Origin: Caryophanales bacterium
Lineage (GTDB): Bacteria; Bacillota_I; Bacilli_A; RFN20; CAG-826
Assembly: GCA_016290145.1 (NCBI GenBank)
Contig: JAEESX010000005.1
Span: 1-41,327 of the forward strand
Length of the DNA: 41,327 nt
Reading direction: 5' to 3'
The notes below the pieces were generated by a model. The model ran no database searches, had not been told where the DNA came from, and saw nothing but the letters and a program-made list of their open reading frames with translations. Both the position numbers and the translations under genes were made by a program. Numbering within the stretch: the stretch's first letter is position 1; every line of letters starts with the position of its first letter. Below, in pieces: positions 1,464-38,567 of the stretch.

Positions 1464-1493
1464 GTTATACACCTACTAATAAAATACTAACAA
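1464..1493 (-). promoter_or_regulatory. candidate dnaG promoter, near-leaderless
   Basis: On the minus strand TTGTTA (1488-1493) and TATAAC (1464-1469) are 18 bp apart, and only 8 nt separate the -10 box from the dnaG ATG. The short palindrome ATAAC-TTT-GTTAT (1456-1468) overlaps the -10. The boxes were found by eye, so support is moderate. Confidence 0.4.
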
Positions 1494-4963: not shown

Positions 4964-5419
4964 TTAGTTCTCCTTTGGAGGCAAGATTTCATCTTGTAAT
5001 TTGAACATTACTGCCTCATCTTCTTTTGTCATGTGGTCATAGCCTAATAAGTGCAATAACCCATGAACGAACAAGAAAGATAATTCTCTTTCTAATGGAT
5101 GTCCGTATTCCTCTGCTTGCGCTTTCGCTTTTTCGACACTGATATAAATGTCGCCAAGAGGAACGGGACCATGACCATGGAGCTTTTCATCCCTTTGTTC
5201 ATCTCCATCTAAGAACGCGAAGGAGATAACATCTGTTGGACGATCAACATTGCGATATTCTCTGTTCAATTGGTGAATAAATGTATTATCCACTAAAGTG
5301 ACACTCAAAATGGCTTCGCAACTTAATCCTAAGTGATTAAAAGTCTTTTCGAGTAAGCCGAGATAAATATCTTCGTATTTCTCGTATCCAGAAACTTGTG
5401 AATCGAAATCTAATTCCAT
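4964..5419 (-). CDS. ybeY: endoribonuclease YbeY, rRNA maturation factor
   Basis: Single-strand endoribonuclease needed for 16S rRNA 3'-end maturation and ribosome quality control. The zinc motif HGLLHLLGYDH supplies H119, H123 and H129 of the 151-residue chain. The N-terminus aligns with the family from MELDF onward, so the ATG at 5419 is sound although no Shine-Dalgarno precedes it. TATAAT lies 5 nt upstream, suggesting a leaderless mRNA that opens the ybeY-cdd-era-recO unit. The phoH gene that usually precedes ybeY is absent here. Confidence 0.95.
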   Translation of the reverse strand: MELDFDSQVSGYEKYEDIYLGLLEKTFNHLGLSCEAILSVTLVDNTFIHQLNREYRNVDRPTDVISFAFLDGDEQRDEKLHGHGPVPLGDIYISVEKAKAQAEEYGHPLERELSFLFVHGLLHLLGYDHMTKEDEAVMFKLQDEILPPKEN

Positions 5420-5424
5420 GGGCT

Positions 5425-5436
5425 ATTATAATAGCA
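5425..5436 (-). promoter_or_regulatory. ybeY promoter, -10 directly before the start codon
   Basis: TATAAT (5425-5430) is separated from the ybeY ATG by only 5 nt. The overlapping reading TGC-TATTAT is an extended -10. Normal spacing would place the transcription start at the ATG itself. No convincing -35 is seen. Confidence 0.5.
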
Positions 5437-14972: not shown

Positions 14973-16786
14973 TAATCATCTTCTTCGTCAATCGATAAGA
15001 TTGACATGAACGCTTCTTGTGGGACTTCGACAGAGCCGATTTTCTTCATTCTCTTCTTGCCCTCTTTTTGTTTCTCTAAAAGCTTCTTTTTACGGGTGAT
15101 GTCACCACCATAACACTTCGCTAAAACGTCTTTTCTGACTGCTTTAACGTCGCATCTAGCAATGACCTTACCACCGATTGCGGCTTGGATTGGAATTTCA
15201 AATTGATGACGTGGAATAACTTCTTTTATTCTCCGAATAATGCCTAGTCCTCTATGATATGCACCAGGTCTATAAACGATGCTGCTTAAAGCATCCACGA
15301 CTGTGCCGTTGAGTAAAACATCAAGCTTAGCGAGATCGCCTTGCTTGTAATCTGAGAACTCATAGTCGAATGATGCATATCCTTTTGTATAGCTCTTTAG
15401 CTTATCAAAGAAATTGTAAACAATTTCAGATAATGGAAGCTCATAGGTAAGAATCATTCTTGTATCATCGAAATATTCTAAGTTGGTATAAATACCACGT
15501 CTCTCTTGGCAGAGTTCCATGATTGGACCAACGTATTCTTTTGGTGTCATAATGCTAGCTTTAACATATGGTTCTTCAATAGAAGAAATCTTGCTACCAT
15601 CAGGCATTTTAGCAGGGTTATCCAAATGTAAAACTGTACCATCTGTGAGGTTCACGTGATAAATAACGCTAGGTGCAGTTAAGATGAGGTCGAGATTATA
15701 TTCTCTTTCAAGTCTCTCTTGGACGATATCCATATGTAATAAACCTAAGAAACCACATCTAAAGCCAAAGCCTAAGGCTTGGCTTGTTTCAGCAACATAA
15801 TGTAAGGAAGCATCATTTAATGATAACTTCTCTAAGGCATCTTTTAAGGCCTGATAATCCCTACTATCAACTGGATATAAGCCACAGTAAACCATTGGGT
15901 TGATAACACGATAACCAGGTAAGGCTTCTGGGGTTGGATTATCAAATGATGTTACTGTATCACCAGGATGGACATCTTTGATGTCTTTAATTTGTCCGCA
16001 TAAATAACCGACCTGTCCAGCAGTTAATGTCTTAGTCTTAATTTCGTTTGGTGTTCTGATACCAACTTCGGTAACGACATAATCCTTGCCCGCTTGCATG
16101 AGTTTAATGTGATCACCCACGGAAACAGAACCATCTTTAATTCTAATAAGAATTACAACGCCTCTATATGGGTCATAATAACTATCAAAGATAAGCGCTT
16201 TTAATGGAGCGTTTTCATCGCCTGTTGGTGCAGGCACATTATGCACGATATATTCGAGCAATTCGTGAATATGGAAACCAGTCTTTGCAGAAACCTCAAC
16301 AGCGTTAGAACAATCGACGCCAATTCTTTGTTCGATTTCTTTTTTCGCCCATTCAGGCTGTGCGCTTGGTAAATCAACTTTGTTGATAACTGGTAAAATT
16401 TCTAAGTTATTGTCCACTGCTAAGTAGACATTCGCGAGTGTTTGCGCTTCTACGCCTTGTGTAGCGTCCACGACTAAAACCGCACCTTCGCATGCGGCTA
16501 AAGAACGTGATACTTCATAAGTGAAGTCAACATGCCCCGGAGTGTCGATGAGATTGAAGATATATTCTTCACCATCATCAGCTTTGTAACTTAGAGTTAC
16601 AGCGTTTAATTTAATGGTAATTCCTCTTTCTCTTTCTAAGTCCATAGAGTCGAGAATTTGGTCTTTCATTTCACGCGCTTCAATCGCGCCTGTGGATTCC
16701 AAAATACGATCCGCAAGTGTTGATTTGCCGTGATCGATGTGAGCAATGATAGAAAAGTTTCTAATTTTCTTTTGTTGGAAATCCAT
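14972..16786 (-). CDS. lepA: elongation factor 4 (LepA), ribosome-associated GTPase
   Basis: Translational GTPase that acts on stalled or assembling ribosomes. G1 is AHIDHGKST (15-23), G3 DTPGH, G4 NKVD. Domains II and III follow, then the LepA-specific C-terminal domain ending in [19 protein letters not shown]. The 604-residue length is typical. No Shine-Dalgarno precedes the ATG; TATAAT lies 9 nt upstream, predicting an almost leaderless message. lepA upstream of hemW and hrcA is the usual Firmicutes order. Confidence 0.98.
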
Positions 16787-16795
16787 AATGTCTAA

Positions 16796-16823
16796 ATTAT
16801 ATCAATAATTTTTACTTATCAAA
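16796..16823 (-). promoter_or_regulatory. lepA promoter, near-leaderless
   Basis: TATAAT (16796-16801), TTTGAT (16818-16823) 16 bp upstream, and only 9 nt from the -10 to the ATG. The -35 overlaps the last codons of the helicase gene. Confidence 0.55.
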
Positions 16824-19160: not shown

Positions 19161-19184
19161 AAGAAAAGACTAGATAAACTAGTC
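19161..19184 (-). terminator. intrinsic terminator of fmt, stop codon in the stem
   Basis: GACTAG (19179-19184), TTTAT loop, CTAGTC (19168-19173), then TTTTCTT. The fmt stop codon TAG (19179-19181) forms half of the first arm. Confidence 0.75.
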
Positions 19185-20117
19185 TAATTTCTTTCCTAAC
19201 AATCCTTGATTGCCGTTTAAGAAGGATTTATAGTCCATTCTATTTTTGCCTTCTTTTTGGACTTCAAGTAACGCTAATTGGCCGCCATTACATTGCACGA
19301 CAAATCCGCGTTTGTCTGCTTGCACGATGGTGCCGACTTCTGCGGTCATCTCATCATTCAAGACTTGTGATTTATAAACTTTTAGTTTCTTACCATCTAA
19401 ATAGAAGTAGGCTCCTGGATGATCGGATAAACCTCTAACCCATCCGTGAAGTTCTTTCACATTTAGATTTAAATCTAATTTCTCTTGTTCTGGTTTAATT
19501 GTTGGGCAGAATGATACTTGGCTTTCATCTTGTTCTTCACCTGGAAGGGTGCCCATCGCATAACTATTAATGTTTTCAAGAGTTAAGTCGATTGCGGCTT
19601 GCGCCATCTTCTTAAATAAGGATGTGGCGTTATCATCATCTTCAATGGCAACTTCTTTTTTGGCATACATTCTACCAGCGTCCATCGCTGCCACCATTTC
19701 CATAAGTGTCATACCGGTAACCTTTTCACCATTTATGAGCGCGTATTGGATAGGCGCTGCGCCACGATATTTAGGAAGTAATGAACCATGTAAATTCACA
19801 CATCCCACTGTTGGGATATCAAGTAGTCCTTGTGGCACGATTTGGCCATAGGCCAATGTGATAATGACATCCGGCGCTAAGTCTTTAACGAATTCGTATT
19901 CTTTACGGATTTTTACAGGTTGAAACACGGGGATGCCATATTTCTCCGCCACTACTTTTGTCGGAACTTTTTCTAACTCACCTTTTCTACCAACTGGGCG
20001 ATCTGGTTGAGCAATTAAGCCAACAAAGTATAATCCCTTATTAATAAGCGCTTCAAAGACTGTCGCACTTATTTCTGGGGTTCCCATAAAAACAAAACGT
20101 ATTCTTTTCTTGTCCAT
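19179..20117 (-). CDS. fmt: methionyl-tRNA formyltransferase
   Basis: Transfers a formyl group from 10-formyl-tetrahydrofolate to Met-tRNA-fMet, so this organism initiates with formyl-methionine. The N-terminal domain opens with VFMGTPEIS and contains the signature SLLPKYRGAAPI near 109-120. The C-terminal OB-like domain is present. 312 residues is the usual length. No Shine-Dalgarno; TATAAT with TTGAAC 16 bp upstream lies 9 nt before the ATG. The def gene that often accompanies fmt is not in this window. Confidence 0.97.
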   Translation of the reverse strand: MDKKRIRFVFMGTPEISATVFEALINKGLYFVGLIAQPDRPVGRKGELEKVPTKVVAEKYGIPVFQPVKIRKEYEFVKDLAPDVIITLAYGQIVPQGLLDIPTVGCVNLHGSLLPKYRGAAPIQYALINGEKVTGMTLMEMVAAMDAGRMYAKKEVAIEDDDNATSLFKKMAQAAIDLTLENINSYAMGTLPGEEQDESQVSFCPTIKPEQEKLDLNLNVKELHGWVRGLSDHPGAYFYLDGKKLKVYKSQVLNDEMTAEVGTIVQADKRGFVVQCNGGQLALLEVQKEGKNRMDYKSFLNGNQGLLGKKLD

Positions 20118-20126
20118 TGCTATTTA

Positions 20127-20154
20127 ATTATATGTTGTTTTTCTCTTAGTTCAA
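20127..20154 (-). promoter_or_regulatory. fmt promoter, near-leaderless, divergent
   Basis: TTGAAC (20149-20154), 16 bp, TATAAT (20127-20132), then 9 nt to the ATG. It is packed back to back with the promoter of the divergent phosphodiesterase gene in a 55-bp intergenic space. Confidence 0.65.
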
Positions 20155-20160
20155 ATAATA

Positions 20161-20166
20161 TATTAT
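20161..20166 (+). promoter_or_regulatory. -10 box of the phosphodiesterase gene, near-leaderless
   Basis: TATTAT ends 6 nt before the ATG at 20173, and there is no Shine-Dalgarno. A -35 cannot be assigned firmly; TTGTTT at 20135-20140 is the best candidate and would overlap the fmt promoter. Confidence 0.45.
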
Positions 20167-20172
20167 TTAGAT

Positions 20173-20628
20173 ATGAAAATTCTTTTAGTAAGTGATTCTC
20201 ATGGCAATAACGAAGCGCTTAATATGCTTCTCAAACAATATCCAAATATGGATTTATACATCCACTGCGGAGATTCAGAAAGCGATGAGTTTTCACTTTA
20301 TCCATACCGTTCAGTAATGGGTAACTGCGACCTCGCATATGACTTCCCAGAGTATTTGGTCATACCAACTCCTTATGGGAATATGTTTGTGCAGCATAGA
20401 CCCAATCCAAAAGCGGATTTATTACGTAGTAATGATATAAAAATATTTGCATATGGACATACACATGTTAGAAAATATAGCGAGGAATTAGGAATAATTT
20501 GTATTAATCCTGGTTCAATATCATTCGCACGAGATAAGTACGATGGATCCTATGCAATTTTAAAAATTAATGAGAAGAAAGTAGAAGTCGAATTCCATAC
20601 ATTAGAGGAAACGATTTCTAAAATATAA
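20173..20628 (+). CDS. YfcE/MJ0936-type metallophosphodiesterase
   Basis: 151 residues of the calcineurin-like fold. Metal ligands are seen in order: DSHGN (D8, H10), CGD (D34), GNCD (N51), QHRP where many members have HG, and GHTH. Family members hydrolyse phosphodiesters with Mn or similar metals; the natural substrate is unclear. It opens the plus-strand group and is followed after 39 nt by the adenylating enzyme. In Bacillus-type genomes such a gene often sits by rdgB/rph, so this context is different. Confidence 0.88.
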   Translation: MKILLVSDSHGNNEALNMLLKQYPNMDLYIHCGDSESDEFSLYPYRSVMGNCDLAYDFPEYLVIPTPYGNMFVQHRPNPKADLLRSNDIKIFAYGHTHVRKYSEELGIICINPGSISFARDKYDGSYAILKINEKKVEVEFHTLEETISKI

Positions 20629-23059: not shown

Positions 23060-24043
23060 TTAATCTCTTTTGAAGTTTATTAAGAACAATTCAAAAGCAT
23101 AGAAGCGGTCGACAAGGCCGCTTTTAATTTGCAAGTCGAGATTAAATAAATCATCGAGTGTTCTATGAATTGCTTTTTCAGACATATTAAAGGTTTTCTT
23201 CTTAAGAATTTGCACACGAATAGGTTTGATCTTGAGTTCGTTTGCGATATCATCATTAGTCATACTTTGTTTAGATAAGAAAACCACTTGGTTTAATAAA
23301 CGGAATTGATTACCTAGCATACTGATTAAAGTCACCGGTTCAACGTTAGATACTTGTAAGTCTCTAAATAAACCGATGGCTTTTTCATTTTCACCATCTA
23401 ATAAATAGTTAAATAATTGGAAGGTGTTATCTTCAAGTGGTCTAGTCACTAATAAAAGAACATCTTCATATCTAATATGTTTGGTATATAAGAATAGTTT
23501 TTGAATACTATTCTTTAATAAAGGAATATCACCAGCAGTACGGTCCACTAATTCCATAACGGCATCACTGTCCATCTTACTGCCTGGATTCTTCGTTATT
23601 GAGTCATTAACAACCTTACGAACATATTCGTTCCATTCCTTAATTGTGGGGTCACCCATAAATGTGACTTTTGCGTTAGCTTCAATTAATTTGAAGAGTT
23701 CACTATTCTTATCCACTTCTGCGGTAGGAACAGTTAAAACTAAATCACAATCAGGATTTGGATTTTTAATATATTGAATAAGGGCTTTATAATCTTGATC
23801 TGCTTCAATCTTGTTTCTTGGTTTTGGTTTCATTAAGAAATAGCAATTATCGACCGCGACAACCTTTTTGTCATATCCTAATGGAACATAGTTCGCATCA
23901 TCGATAATTTCTTGAATTAAAGTGTTATTTCCGTCATAACGCACAAAATTCATATCATCGCGTTCTGGCAATGACTGTTTAGCGATGGCTTTCACCACTT
24001 TTTTAATTTCAGAACTCTGATTGCTATATACAAGATGAATCAT
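23060..24043 (-). CDS. holA: DNA polymerase III subunit delta
   Basis: Opens the beta clamp within the clamp-loader complex. The 327 residues show the HolA pattern without P-loop motifs: an N-terminal AAA+-like domain (MIHLVYSNQSSEIKK), DRTAGDIPLLKNSIQKL in the middle, and a helical C-terminal collar domain (LISMLGNQFRLLNQV and IHRTLDDLFNLDLQIKSG). No Shine-Dalgarno precedes the ATG; TATAAT ends 6 nt before it, just beyond the comEC terminator, so holA appears to be its own leaderless unit. Confidence 0.92.
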   Translation of the reverse strand: MIHLVYSNQSSEIKKVVKAIAKQSLPERDDMNFVRYDGNNTLIQEIIDDANYVPLGYDKKVVAVDNCYFLMKPKPRNKIEADQDYKALIQYIKNPNPDCDLVLTVPTAEVDKNSELFKLIEANAKVTFMGDPTIKEWNEYVRKVVNDSITKNPGSKMDSDAVMELVDRTAGDIPLLKNSIQKLFLYTKHIRYEDVLLLVTRPLEDNTFQLFNYLLDGENEKAIGLFRDLQVSNVEPVTLISMLGNQFRLLNQVVFLSKQSMTNDDIANELKIKPIRVQILKKKTFNMSEKAIHRTLDDLFNLDLQIKSGLVDRFYAFELFLINFKRD

Positions 24044-24049
24044 AGAAAC

Positions 24050-24055
24050 ATTATA
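24050..24055 (-). promoter_or_regulatory. holA -10 box, leaderless
   Basis: TATAAT, 6 nt, ATG. No clear -35 is seen in the short stretch after the comEC terminator. Confidence 0.5.
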
Positions 24056-24065
24056 TAATAACTTT

Positions 24066-24090
24066 CCAAAAACTACATAAAAATGTAGTT
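24066..24090 (-). terminator. intrinsic terminator of comEC, stop codon in the stem
   Basis: AACTACAT (24083-24090), TTTT loop, ATGTAGTT (24071-24078), then further T. The comEC stop codon TAG (24073-24075) is within the second arm and the last codons form the rest of the hairpin. Confidence 0.75.
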
Positions 24091-26088: not shown

Positions 26089-26618
26089 GCGTGTAAGGTT
26101 ACGAAGTTTCTTACTTTACGATATGTTGCGTTACCAATGCCATACACTTCCATGAGTTGTTCAACGGTTTGAAAGACACCATTACTTGTGCGGTAACTGA
26201 CGATGGAACTCGCAATAGAAGTTGTGATTCCATTAACATTTGTTAATGTATCAGCGGTATCAGAGTTAATGTTGACCTTAGCAATAGGTTCATTATTGCA
26301 GATGTCAGTAGCGTCATATTTACTCGCGATATAGTAAGTATTTCCCGCTTTTAAAGATGCTTGCTCAAAGAACGCTAAATCGTCTGCGTTATTTGTGAGT
26401 CCGCCACCTGCTCTAATAAGATCTCCCATTGTGATTCCATCACTTAAAACATAGGTGCCAGGTTTATTGACCTCACCCTCAATTGTGTAGGCGCTCCCAC
26501 TATCTACTGTTTGCTGAGTGTTTGTGGTTTGGTTGTTATTCACTTTTGGATCAATCATCATAAATCCGATGATTAAAACTGCCGCGGCAATAACAACACC
26601 AATAATGACTTTATACAT
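26085..26618 (-). CDS. comEA: competence protein ComEA, DNA receptor
   Basis: Membrane-anchored receptor that binds double-stranded DNA outside the cell. The 177 residues comprise an N-terminal membrane helix (about 4-24), a flexible Thr/Gln/Asn stretch, an SLBB domain (YTIEGEVNKPGTYVLSDG and on, about 48-102), and a helix-hairpin-helix pair (about 115-177: INSDTADTLTNVNGITTSIA, MEVYGIGNATYRKV). AGGAGG seven nt before the ATG fixes the start. It is coupled to comEC. Its leader is a near-copy of that of the C39-peptidase gene. Confidence 0.95.
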   Translation of the reverse strand: MYKVIIGVVIAAAVLIIGFMMIDPKVNNNQTTNTQQTVDSGSAYTIEGEVNKPGTYVLSDGITMGDLIRAGGGLTNNADDLAFFEQASLKAGNTYYIASKYDATDICNNEPIAKVNINSDTADTLTNVNGITTSIASSIVSYRTSNGVFQTVEQLMEVYGIGNATYRKVRNFVTLHA

Positions 26619-26671
26619 AAAAAGACCTCCTACTTAATACATAGGGGGTCTATTTATTATTCTTTTGCAAA
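26619..26671 (-). promoter_or_regulatory. shared leader element, copy 2 (before comEA)
   Basis: TTTGCA (26666-26671), 17 nt, CCCCC (26644-26648). A hairpin pairs AGACCCCCTA (26642-26651) with TAGGAGGTCT (26623-26632) around a 9-nt loop (26633-26641). Compared with copy 1, two outer pairs differ on both arms and still pair (T-A to G-C, G-C to A-T), and the C-A mismatch is kept. The Shine-Dalgarno lies in the second arm. It starts 5 nt after the greA stop. Confidence 0.7.
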
Positions 26672-34112: not shown

Positions 34113-34561
34113 TAGAACATCTCCTTGCTATCAAGTAGTAGGGTAAACGGGCCATCGTTAATTGAACTGACTTGCATATCCGCTCCGAACACACCTGTGG
34201 AGACCTTGCCGTGCTTTAGTTCTAACTGTTGATTGAAGTAGTCATAAAGTGGTTCAGCTTCACCTGGACGTAACGCATCCACGAATGATGGACGTCTGCC
34301 TTTCGCGGTGTTCGCATATAAAGTAAATTGGCTCACCGAAAGAATGGATCCATTCACGTCTTGAAGGGAAATATTGATATTTCCGTGTTCATCTGGGAAC
34401 GCTCTTAAAGAGAGAATTTTATCAATCATCTTATCGACGGTTTCTTTATTGTCGCCATCAGTAAAACCAACGAGTAAAAGATAGCCACGGCTAATTGCAC
34501 CGACGACTTTCTTATTGATCTCTACTTTAGCTTCTAAAACAGTTGTTAAAACGACTCTCAT
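34112..34561 (-). CDS. dtd: D-aminoacyl-tRNA deacylase
   Basis: Removes D-amino acids wrongly attached to tRNA. The 149 residues show the SVSQFTLYA motif (about 76-84) and the Gly-Pro motif in NDGPFTLLLD (about 134-143), which excludes L-substrates. The ATG overlaps the rarA stop by one base and the 3' end overlaps mnmA by one base, so all three are coupled. In many Firmicutes dtd sits next to relA; that is not the case here. Confidence 0.95.
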   Translation of the reverse strand: MRVVLTTVLEAKVEINKKVVGAISRGYLLLVGFTDGDNKETVDKMIDKILSLRAFPDEHGNINISLQDVNGSILSVSQFTLYANTAKGRRPSFVDALRPGEAEPLYDYFNQQLELKHGKVSTGVFGADMQVSSINDGPFTLLLDSKEMF

Positions 34562-35796
34562 TATTTCTTAACCTTGTCCCAATATTCTTTGAGTGTTTGT
34601 TCGAATTTATTATCTTGGTAAATATAATATTTACTATCTTTAATATCATCTGGTAAGTATTGTTGTTTAACCCAGTGATGTGAATAGTTATGAGGATACT
34701 TATAGTTTTGTCCTTTGACCTTAGCATCTTCACCATCATAATGGGTATTTTGTAATGTTCTAGGAACGTTAATTCCCTTGCCTTGATGGATATCACTAAT
34801 CGCTGTATCAATGGCGATAACACCAGAATTACTCTTTGGTGCGGTCGCAATTAAAATTGCGGCATTCGCTAAAGGAAGTCTTGCTTCAGGCATACCTAAT
34901 TGAAGCGCACTATCTACGCACGCTTTGACAATTGGAATGATACTTGGATAAGCCATACCAACATCTTCGCTTGCGGAGCAAAGAAGTCTACGGCAGGCAG
35001 CGATTAAATCTCCGGCTTCTAACATCTTTGCTAAATAGAAGACTGCAGCATCTGGATCACTGCCTCTTAATGACTTCATTAAAGCGGATAAGTTATCGAA
35101 GTGTTTATCTTCACTTCTATCATAGGAAATATTGGCTTTATCAATGAATGATTCCACCATCTTTTTGGTAATCTTATTGTTCTTTGTTAAAGAGTTAGCG
35201 AGGAACTCTAAATTATTGAGTCCTTTTCTCATATCTCCATTCGTGGATAACGCTAATAAGGAAAGTGCTTCTTTTTCTAAAGAAACATCTAACTTCTTCG
35301 CGGCTCTAGTAAGTCCTTTTTCAATCTCAGATTTCTCAATCGCTTTGAACTCAAAAACAGTGCAACGAGAAAGAAGTGCTGGATAGATATAAAAATATGG
35401 ATTTTCGGTTGTGGATGCAATAAGTGTAATATCACCATTTTCCACGAATTCTAATAATGATTGTTGTTGTTTCTTATTAAGATATTGGATTTCATCCAAA
35501 TATAACAAAATACCATTTGTATTAAATAAGCCATTCACTTCACCAATGATCTTTTTAATATCATCAGTGTTTGCTGTGGTTCCATTTAACTTATAGAGAC
35601 TCATATTCGCTTTTTTAGCGATGATATTTGCCATTGTGGTTTTGCCAATTCCTGGAGGACCGTAAAAGATCATGTTAGAAATATGACCGGAGTCGATCAC
35701 CTTTCTAAATGTGCTACCTTTGGCTAATAAATGGGATTGTCCCACCATATCATCTAAGGTTTCTGGTCTAAGGATGTCTGCTAATGGTTTTTGCAT
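34561..35796 (-). CDS. rarA: replication-associated recombination protein RarA (MgsA)
   Basis: AAA+ ATPase related to clamp loaders that acts at stalled replication forks. Walker A is YGPPGIGKTT (about 44-53), Walker B LYLDEIQ, the sensor region ASTTENPYF, and the C-terminal tetramerisation domain contains the IAIDTAISDI and YKYPHNY segments typical of the family. 411 residues is normal. No Shine-Dalgarno; TTGATT-N17-TATTAT places the transcription start at the ATG itself. It heads rarA-dtd-mnmA. Confidence 0.95.
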   Translation of the reverse strand: MQKPLADILRPETLDDMVGQSHLLAKGSTFRKVIDSGHISNMIFYGPPGIGKTTMANIIAKKANMSLYKLNGTTANTDDIKKIIGEVNGLFNTNGILLYLDEIQYLNKKQQQSLLEFVENGDITLIASTTENPYFYIYPALLSRCTVFEFKAIEKSEIEKGLTRAAKKLDVSLEKEALSLLALSTNGDMRKGLNNLEFLANSLTKNNKITKKMVESFIDKANISYDRSEDKHFDNLSALMKSLRGSDPDAAVFYLAKMLEAGDLIAACRRLLCSASEDVGMAYPSIIPIVKACVDSALQLGMPEARLPLANAAILIATAPKSNSGVIAIDTAISDIHQGKGINVPRTLQNTHYDGEDAKVKGQNYKYPHNYSHHWVKQQYLPDDIKDSKYYIYQDNKFEQTLKEYWDKVKK

Positions 35797-35802
35797 AGCA
35801 TA

Positions 35803-35831
35803 ATAATATCTATATTTGCATCTTTAATCAA
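35803..35831 (-). promoter_or_regulatory. rarA promoter, leaderless
   Basis: TTGATT (35826-35831), 17 bp, TATTAT (35803-35808), 6 nt to the ATG. This is the clearest leaderless arrangement in the window because both boxes are well spaced. Confidence 0.65.
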
Positions 35832-35861: not shown

Positions 35862-35889
35862 AAAAGAAAAGACCTCACGAGGAGGCCTT
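35862..35889 (-). terminator. intrinsic terminator of pdp
   Basis: AAGGCCTC (35882-35889), 5-nt loop, GAGGTCTT (35869-35876) with one G-U pair, then TTCTTTT. Confidence 0.85.
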
Positions 35890-37286: not shown

Positions 37287-37295
37287 TAATATACT
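37287..37295 (+). promoter_or_regulatory. -10 box of the rRNA methyltransferase gene, leaderless
   Basis: TAATAT (37287-37292) and the overlapping TATACT (37290-37295) end 6 and 3 nt before the ATG at 37299. There is no Shine-Dalgarno and no clear -35. Confidence 0.4.
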
Positions 37296-37298
37296 TGT

Positions 37299-38567
37299 AT
37301 GGAATTTAGCGAACATCTCAAATCATATTTATCTAATGAAGAAATTGATAAATTAATGACTTCTTTAGAAGATGAATCTCTTCATGCTGTCTTATTAAAT
37401 CCAAAGAAAATGAGCGATGAAGAATTCCTTAAACTATTTCCTGATGTCATTAAGCATCCTATAGTCGCCCACGCGTATATTTATAAAAAGGAATTATATA
37501 ATTTAGGTAAAAGTGTCTATCACACATTAGGCTGTTTCTATCTTCAAGAACCATCCGCGATGGTACCAGCCTATTTATTAAATGCCGAAGAAAATGATTT
37601 AGTCCTCGATATGTGCGCAGCACCTGGAGGCAAATCCATCCAATCTTCATTTTTAATGAAGGACAAAGGTTTAATTATCTCTAACGACTTATCTAAACCA
37701 AGAACATTTTCGATTGTTGAAAACATTGAACGCTTAGGTATCGGTAACGTTGTCGTTACTAATAACGATTTATCGTTAATCTATAATAAACACTTAAATA
37801 CATTCGATAAGATCATTTTAGATGCACCGTGTTCTGGTTCTGGCATGTTTAGAAAAGAAGACAAAATGGAACAAGACTGGTCATATAACAAAGTTCTTAA
37901 ATTTGCTGAAACACAAAAAGAATTAATAATGTATGCCTACTCTATGCTCAAACCTGGTGGCGTGATTTCCTATTCCACATGCTCTTTTTCTCAAGAAGAA
38001 GATGAGGATGTTATTGAATATTTACTCAAAAACACAGATGCAGGGATTATAAAAATAGATGGTAATCCTCTCTTCTATATAAATAAAAAGAAGCCTTTCG
38101 GCATCCATCTTTTACCTTCAATTTTCCCTGGTGAAGGCCACTATATTTGCTTAATTAGAAAACCAGGTAATTCAGTAAAAAAGGAAAATAAAGAAGTAAT
38201 TGAACTAAAAAATAAAAAATTTTCTTTAACAAATATTTACCGTTTTGGAGACTACATTTTTGGTCTCAATTATCCTTATAGTTTTAAATACTTTAATGTC
38301 ATCAGATTAGGTGTCAAAATCGGTGAGGATATCAAAGGTGAAATTAAGTACGATTACCACTACGCACATTATATAGATAATTTTGATAAAACCTATTCAT
38401 TACAAAGTAATGAACTACAAAAATACTTTAATGGGGAGACTTTAAATGTCGCTCTTCCTAAAGGTATCTATCTCCTTACTTTTGATGGTAAAAATGTGGA
38501 CTTGGCTAAGTCTGATGGACGCATTTTGAAGAACCATTTTCCAAAAGGTTTAAGACACAAAATTTAA
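37299..38567 (+). CDS. rsmF: RsmF/NOP2-Sun family rRNA m5C methyltransferase
   Basis: SAM-dependent enzyme that makes 5-methylcytosine in rRNA. The SAM site DMCAAPGGKS is at 104-113. Both catalytic cysteines are present, C178 in DAPCSGSGMF and C228 in STCSF. The C-terminal 130 residues form an RNA-binding extension as in RsmF/YebU; 422 residues is close to the family size. The target base cannot be told from sequence. It is divergent from pdp and stands alone before the lipoprotein gene. Confidence 0.9.
   Translation: MEFSEHLKSYLSNEEIDKLMTSLEDESLHAVLLNPKKMSDEEFLKLFPDVIKHPIVAHAYIYKKELYNLGKSVYHTLGCFYLQEPSAMVPAYLLNAEENDLVLDMCAAPGGKSIQSSFLMKDKGLIISNDLSKPRTFSIVENIERLGIGNVVVTNNDLSLIYNKHLNTFDKIILDAPCSGSGMFRKEDKMEQDWSYNKVLKFAETQKELIMYAYSMLKPGGVISYSTCSFSQEEDEDVIEYLLKNTDAGIIKIDGNPLFYINKKKPFGIHLLPSIFPGEGHYICLIRKPGNSVKKENKEVIELKNKKFSLTNIYRFGDYIFGLNYPYSFKYFNVIRLGVKIGEDIKGEIKYDYHYAHYIDNFDKTYSLQSNELQKYFNGETLNVALPKGIYLLTFDGKNVDLAKSDGRILKNHFPKGLRHKI

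Follow-up and report, generated by a model that had tools for sequence, protein, structure and literature searches.

Probable leaderless starts at unit-opening genes in a genome and family of uncultured gut Bacilli

The analyzed stretch of DNA, here called the window, is a contig of 41,327 nucleotides from an 850 kb MAG that is 75% complete. The rarA gene (34561-35796, minus strand) is preceded by a pyrimidine-nucleoside phosphorylase gene, whose probable intrinsic terminator (35862..35887, minus strand) was read from the sequence as GGCCTC-CTCGT-GAGGTC followed by TTTTCTTTT. The rarA promoter lies downstream of this terminator. This promoter has a -35 box TTGATT (35826..35831, minus strand) and a -10 box TATTAT (35803..35808, minus strand) separated by a 17-nt spacer, and the -10 box stands 6 nt before the ATG (35796) with no Shine-Dalgarno (SD) site, an arrangement that we compared with that of orthologues in the family. 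All site coordinates in the window were verified base by base.

The original prediction had named nine genes of the window, rarA included, with a TATAAT-like box next to the ATG. The coordinates were correct for all nine, and six of the sites are good. Besides rarA, these are holA (TATAAT, 24050..24055, minus strand, 6 nt before the ATG at 24043), lepA (TATAAT, 16796..16801, minus strand, 9 nt before the ATG at 16786), ybeY (TATAAT, 5425..5430, minus strand, 5 nt before the ATG at 5419), fmt (TATAAT, 20127..20132, minus strand, 9 nt before the ATG at 20117) and the gene of a YfcE-family phosphodiesterase (TATTAT, 20161..20166, plus strand, 6 nt before the ATG at 20173), all of them without an SD site. 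The -35 boxes claimed for rarA and fmt are both present, the latter being TTGAAC (20149..20154, minus strand) with a 16-nt spacer. The phosphodiesterase gene is divergent from fmt, and the two ATGs are 55 nt apart. Upstream of holA, an intrinsic terminator consisting of AACTACA..TGTAGTT and a T-run (24068..24090, minus strand) has its hairpin end about 27 nt before the ATG, and similar hairpins were seen in several holA orthologues.

The remaining three sites are weak. The dnaG candidate TATAAC (1464..1469, minus strand, 8 nt before the ATG at 1455) misses the final T, and the rsmF candidate (37287..37295, plus strand) can be read either as TAATAT with two mismatches at 6 nt or as TATACT at 3 nt before the ATG at 37299. 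In the case of the helicase, TAAATA is no acceptable -10 box; a leaderless start is still plausible there, and a terminator hairpin (GACTAG..CTAGTC with a T-run, 19164..19184, minus strand) ends about 15 nt before the ATG (19151). Searches against NCBIfam bear out the names holA, lepA, fmt, ybeY and YfcE-family phosphodiesterase; for rarA, rsmF and the helicase they bear out the broader family only, as no best match reached the curated cut-off of a specific model. Rfam gave no match on the window. Separately, a hairpin CCCCCT..AGGAGG lies directly before an ATG at 26618-26660 (minus strand), with an SD site inside its 3' arm and a T-run behind it, and a second gene with the same layout was found on stretch L013. 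The hairpin at 26618-26660 is possibly a switch that masks the SD site or a terminator-like regulator.

Considering that the genome is 64% A+T and that the window sites had been picked by eye, the boxes could in principle be chance TATAAT-like words in A+T-rich spacers. Following the check proposed in the original prediction, we tallied the distance of the -10 box in first and internal genes over 587 kb, about 69% of the MAG. Genes were called with our own 3-periodic Markov model and a 5'-most ATG rule, so that starts came from the coding signal and upstream motifs were never used. A codon-only gene finder was dropped, as it made starts too short and blurred the leaderless signal. Divergent genes, whose neighbor is on the other strand, were taken as the set that must own a promoter (n = 102), and a box was counted if it read TAnnnT, differed from TATAAT at no more than one base and had its end 5-10 nt upstream of the ATG. 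An SD site was present at 34/102 divergent genes and absent from 68/102. Among the latter, 28/68 had a box, compared with 6.7 +/- 2.4 in dinucleotide shuffles, and none of 300 shuffles reached 28. The distances peaked sharply at 6 nt, with 11 genes against a background of about one per position. The tally was thus positive and bears out the proposal that many unit-opening genes are of a leaderless type.

The peak was absent from the shuffles and from tight operon genes, in which 5/82 had a box for 3.8 expected (p = 7e-8 for unit-start against tight operon genes). Genes inside operons had been said to carry mostly SD sites, and this held, with an SD site at 132 of the 213 genes that follow gaps of <30 nt; over all genes called, 52% have one. 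Nor did eight further families of Bacilli, most of them similar in composition, show any enrichment: samples of 60-100 kb each yielded 13 boxes for about 21 expected, and boxed divergent genes amounted to 4/142, against 28/102 in the present genome (Fisher p = 2e-8). Furthermore, TATAAT is kept in G+C-richer upstream contexts, such as those of lepA in genomes G045 and G052. The tally refutes chance words as an overall explanation, which we regard as extremely improbable, although the single weak sites of dnaG, rsmF and the helicase could be such words.

To describe the boxes with motif and position together, we used a mixture model with TATAAT as the starting motif, refitted on the divergent genes. 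The model placed the -10 box at 5-10 nt in about 34% of the divergent genes of this genome and at 11-14 nt in 2%, most of the others having it further upstream. The nearly empty zone of 11-14 nt is expected if a gene must have either no leader or one with enough space for an SD site. At 5-10 nt, the model found boxes in 8% of co-directional genes that follow a gap of >=30 nt, 1% in the control Bacilli of the eight families, 0% of tight operon genes and 0% of SD-led genes, the last value being partly built in because box and SD site compete for the same bases. Start prediction in MAGs is imperfect and the starts came from our own gene finder, so the promoters might be real and the starts set too far upstream, with the true start downstream behind an SD leader. 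An in-frame downstream start with an SD site was found about equally often in leaderless candidates (6.6%) and in SD genes (4.4%), N-termini are kept at the same ATG across relatives, and genes with real leaders would show no promoter peak at 6 nt. As such, misplaced starts are a very unlikely explanation.

The refitted motif stayed TATAAT, with A2 in 96% and T6 in 98%. At a spacing of exactly 17 nt, a TTG preceded 6/45 boxes of this genome, with at most two at any other spacer, and 13/49 boxes in named relatives, with at most four at other spacers. With this genome taken by itself, a looser -35 test did not reach significance (24% vs 15%, p = 0.14). In the 6-nt group of this genome and the named relatives (38 genes), base -1 was C or T in 94%, and TTGA was favored at -35 to -32 relative to the ATG. 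Among candidates with a distance of 5-7 nt, A at -1 was found in 5%, compared with 26% of SD genes. In these features, the boxes resemble genuine promoters of the sigma-A type. Sigma region 1.2 was searched for and not found in this MAG, a negative that is uninformative because the genome is incomplete. In Mesoplasma florum, the distance between the -10 box and the transcription start site is 6-7 nt, with a preference for A (PMC7745072); by analogy, transcription would here start on the ATG.

The A/T-rich word might instead act in translation, as the A-rich sites of Bacteroidota do, on leadered RNAs whose transcription starts further upstream; non-SD initiation on leadered RNAs is known in other phyla (PMC6847099). 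However, the learned motif is that of a -10 element with TTG 17 nt upstream, and a leader would have little space next to the terminators and within the short divergent gaps, which makes a translation element highly improbable. Divergent ATG-to-ATG gaps have a median of 127 nt, against 206 nt in control Bacilli, and their lowest decile is 45 nt, against 105 nt. Among co-directional genes, a box was present in 10/57 with a terminator just upstream and in 10/321 without one (p = 1.6e-4). At several boxes the T-run of the terminator leads straight into the -10 box, for instance ...GGGGATCTTTTTTTGTATAATAAAAGT-ATG, and several boxes follow the terminator too closely for a leader to fit. On stretches L001, L005, L011, L012 and L066, the terminator touches or overlaps the -35/-10 region that belongs to the following gene, so that the boundary between units spans about 20-40 nt. 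Stretches L005 and L011 carry a nearly identical terminator and leaderless promoter (GGGGATCTTTTTTTGTATAATAAAAG), and because this combination occurs on two contigs, the copies probably represent a repeated gene or element.

The box is also conserved in the family. When orthologues of rarA, lepA, holA and fmt in the family were taken together, a box and no SD site were found at 56/81 starts, with G+C-richer relatives included. The box is kept in 23/30 holA orthologues, and a box without an SD site was seen in 10/14 lepA orthologues of the family, compared with 0/14 in non-family Bacilli. In the case of fmt, the least clear of the four genes, 17/29 orthologues were boxed for 6.0 expected. At the rarA locus of named relatives, 23/42 divergent genes without an SD site were boxed for 4.3 expected, a stronger enrichment than in the genome itself, to be read with the limit that these loci are orthologous and so not mutually independent. 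Outside the family, samples were again 60-100 kb each: Oscillospirales gave 10 boxes for about 12 expected, no enrichment, and a UGA-reading family with genomes of 0.7 Mb (f22) gave 9 boxes for about 2.4 expected. On 100 kb each, the signal was weak or negative in two families of the same order (f3 and f5), though in three f3 genomes the rarA start is of the leaderless type.

Among named genomes, the nearest matches to this rarA come from MAGs of rumen and gut; one of them is Candidatus Fiminaster equi, which its authors assign to the GTDB order RFN20, family CAG-826 (PMC8957277). Placement of the window in CAG-826 was made from one gene, rarA, and is provisional, as this gene may have moved between lineages. 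The rarA of the window is 55-62% identical to that of Oscillospirales and 35-43% identical to that of many genera of its own family, and it is also nearer to that of f3 than to that of many own-family genera. This pattern suggests horizontal transfer of the gene. The genes of this genome read well with code 11, and its LepA has no internal stops, unlike that of families f11 and f22.

Full-length ribosomal protein S1 is apparently missing from the family, since only weak, domain-level matches were found in 15/15 of its genomes. It is apparently missing in several other Bacilli families too. Both leaderless-rich families, the present one and f22, are without S1, and S1-less f25 and f20, represented by one stretch-sampled genome each, showed no leaderless signal. 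Because S1-less families without the leaderless signal exist, S1 loss was rejected as a sufficient cause. S1 loss may permit the leaderless trait, without by itself causing it.

Taken all together, the position and motif of the box, the -35 register, the absence of an SD site, the link to unit starts and terminators, the conservation in relatives and the absence from other Bacilli, all observed directly, point to leaderless unit starts. We consider it very probable that about one-third of the promoter-owning genes have an RNA that starts on, or a few nucleotides before, the start codon without an SD leader. This layout would make up about one-third of promoter-owning genes and roughly one-tenth of all genes in this genome, and it is common to a family of uncultured gut Bacilli, probably CAG-826 of order RFN20. 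Promoters of the ordinary housekeeping-sigma type, in which 5-10 nt separate the -10 box from the start codon, would direct RNA polymerase to begin either with the A of the start codon or at most about 4 nt ahead of it, and the resulting mRNA would be leaderless or nearly so, with no room for an SD site. Boxes at 8-10 nt could give leaders of 2-4 nt, so that these RNAs would not be strictly leaderless. RNA 5' ends at the ATG and ribosomes starting on a 5'-terminal AUG are the two steps that we infer from sequence; the AUG would be bound directly, by analogy by an intact 70S ribosome with initiator tRNA, and downstream genes of the same unit would be started via SD sites.

A broader proposal, which we put forward tentatively and hold to be somewhat unlikely, is that leaderless starts are the family-wide default for promoter-owning CAG-826 genes, share their origin with those of Mycoplasmatales and arose with S1 loss and compaction, terminator, promoter and start codon being fused into about 25-55 nt. 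Start prediction and operon models that assume SD sites will misjudge genomes of this family. If the CAG-826 placement holds, the family is a mycoplasma relative with the standard code that is predicted to lack wall and spores, and it could help to decide whether the mycoplasma lineage already had leaderless genes before its extreme reduction. The leaderless genes of this family are also predicted to tolerate blockers of leadered initiation such as kasugamycin.

Leaderless genes are an already known type, described in Mycoplasma, some Lactobacillales, Actinobacteria and Deinococcus-Thermus (PMC3160421), and 21.6% of bacterial species are predicted by GeneMarkS-2 to use them (PMC9581028). The order RFN20/CAG-826 lineage appears to be new among their bearers, and our literature search found no relevant paper on leaderless genes in order RFN20, RF39 or metagenome genomes. 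The original prediction had called frequent leaderless starts known in actinobacteria but not the rule in Bacilli; the latter part agrees with the eight other families, whereas mycoplasmas and some Lactobacillales are nearer comparisons than actinobacteria. Like the TA-led genes of Actinobacteria and Deinococcus-Thermus, those described here have TAnnnT about 10 bp before the start codon, in genomes that mix SD and leaderless genes (PMC3160421), and they share with the TA-led class a -10 box at a fixed short distance, no SD site, a -35 box in register and a position first in the unit. In contrast, the present lineage is distant and low in G+C, with a full TATAAT motif and short divergent gaps. 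Bacteroidota with A-rich non-SD leaders differ more, as this genome has SD sites in 52% of genes and its signal has -10/-35 structure. The Lactobacillales (Lactococcus-Streptococcus and Oenococcus-Leuconostoc clades) are likewise Bacilli with TATAAT near the ATG (PMC3160421), but leaderless-bearing Firmicutes average 4.2% (PMC3160421), compared with about 10% of genes estimated here.

Firmicutes with leaderless genes comprised Lactobacillales and five Mycoplasma genomes, the latter averaging 18.3% (Zheng et al. 2011, PMC3160421). In M. pneumoniae, 16% of transcripts are leaderless-like with normal translation efficiency, SD sites are few and mostly operon-internal, and S1 is absent (PMC10568206). 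For CAG-826, peptidoglycan and spores are predicted to be absent, and the order to which it belongs is closely related to Mycoplasmatales (PMC10868615). Unlike Mycoplasmatales, this genome uses the standard code and not UGA=Trp, and unlike M. pneumoniae, in which 8.1% of genes have an SD site, it has one at about half of its genes. The two nevertheless have in common that SD sites are found mostly inside operons, and mycoplasmas share with this genome a -10 box adjoining the ATG, first genes without an SD site (PMC3160421, PMC10568206) and small genomes without full-length S1 in related orders of Bacilli (PMC10868615).
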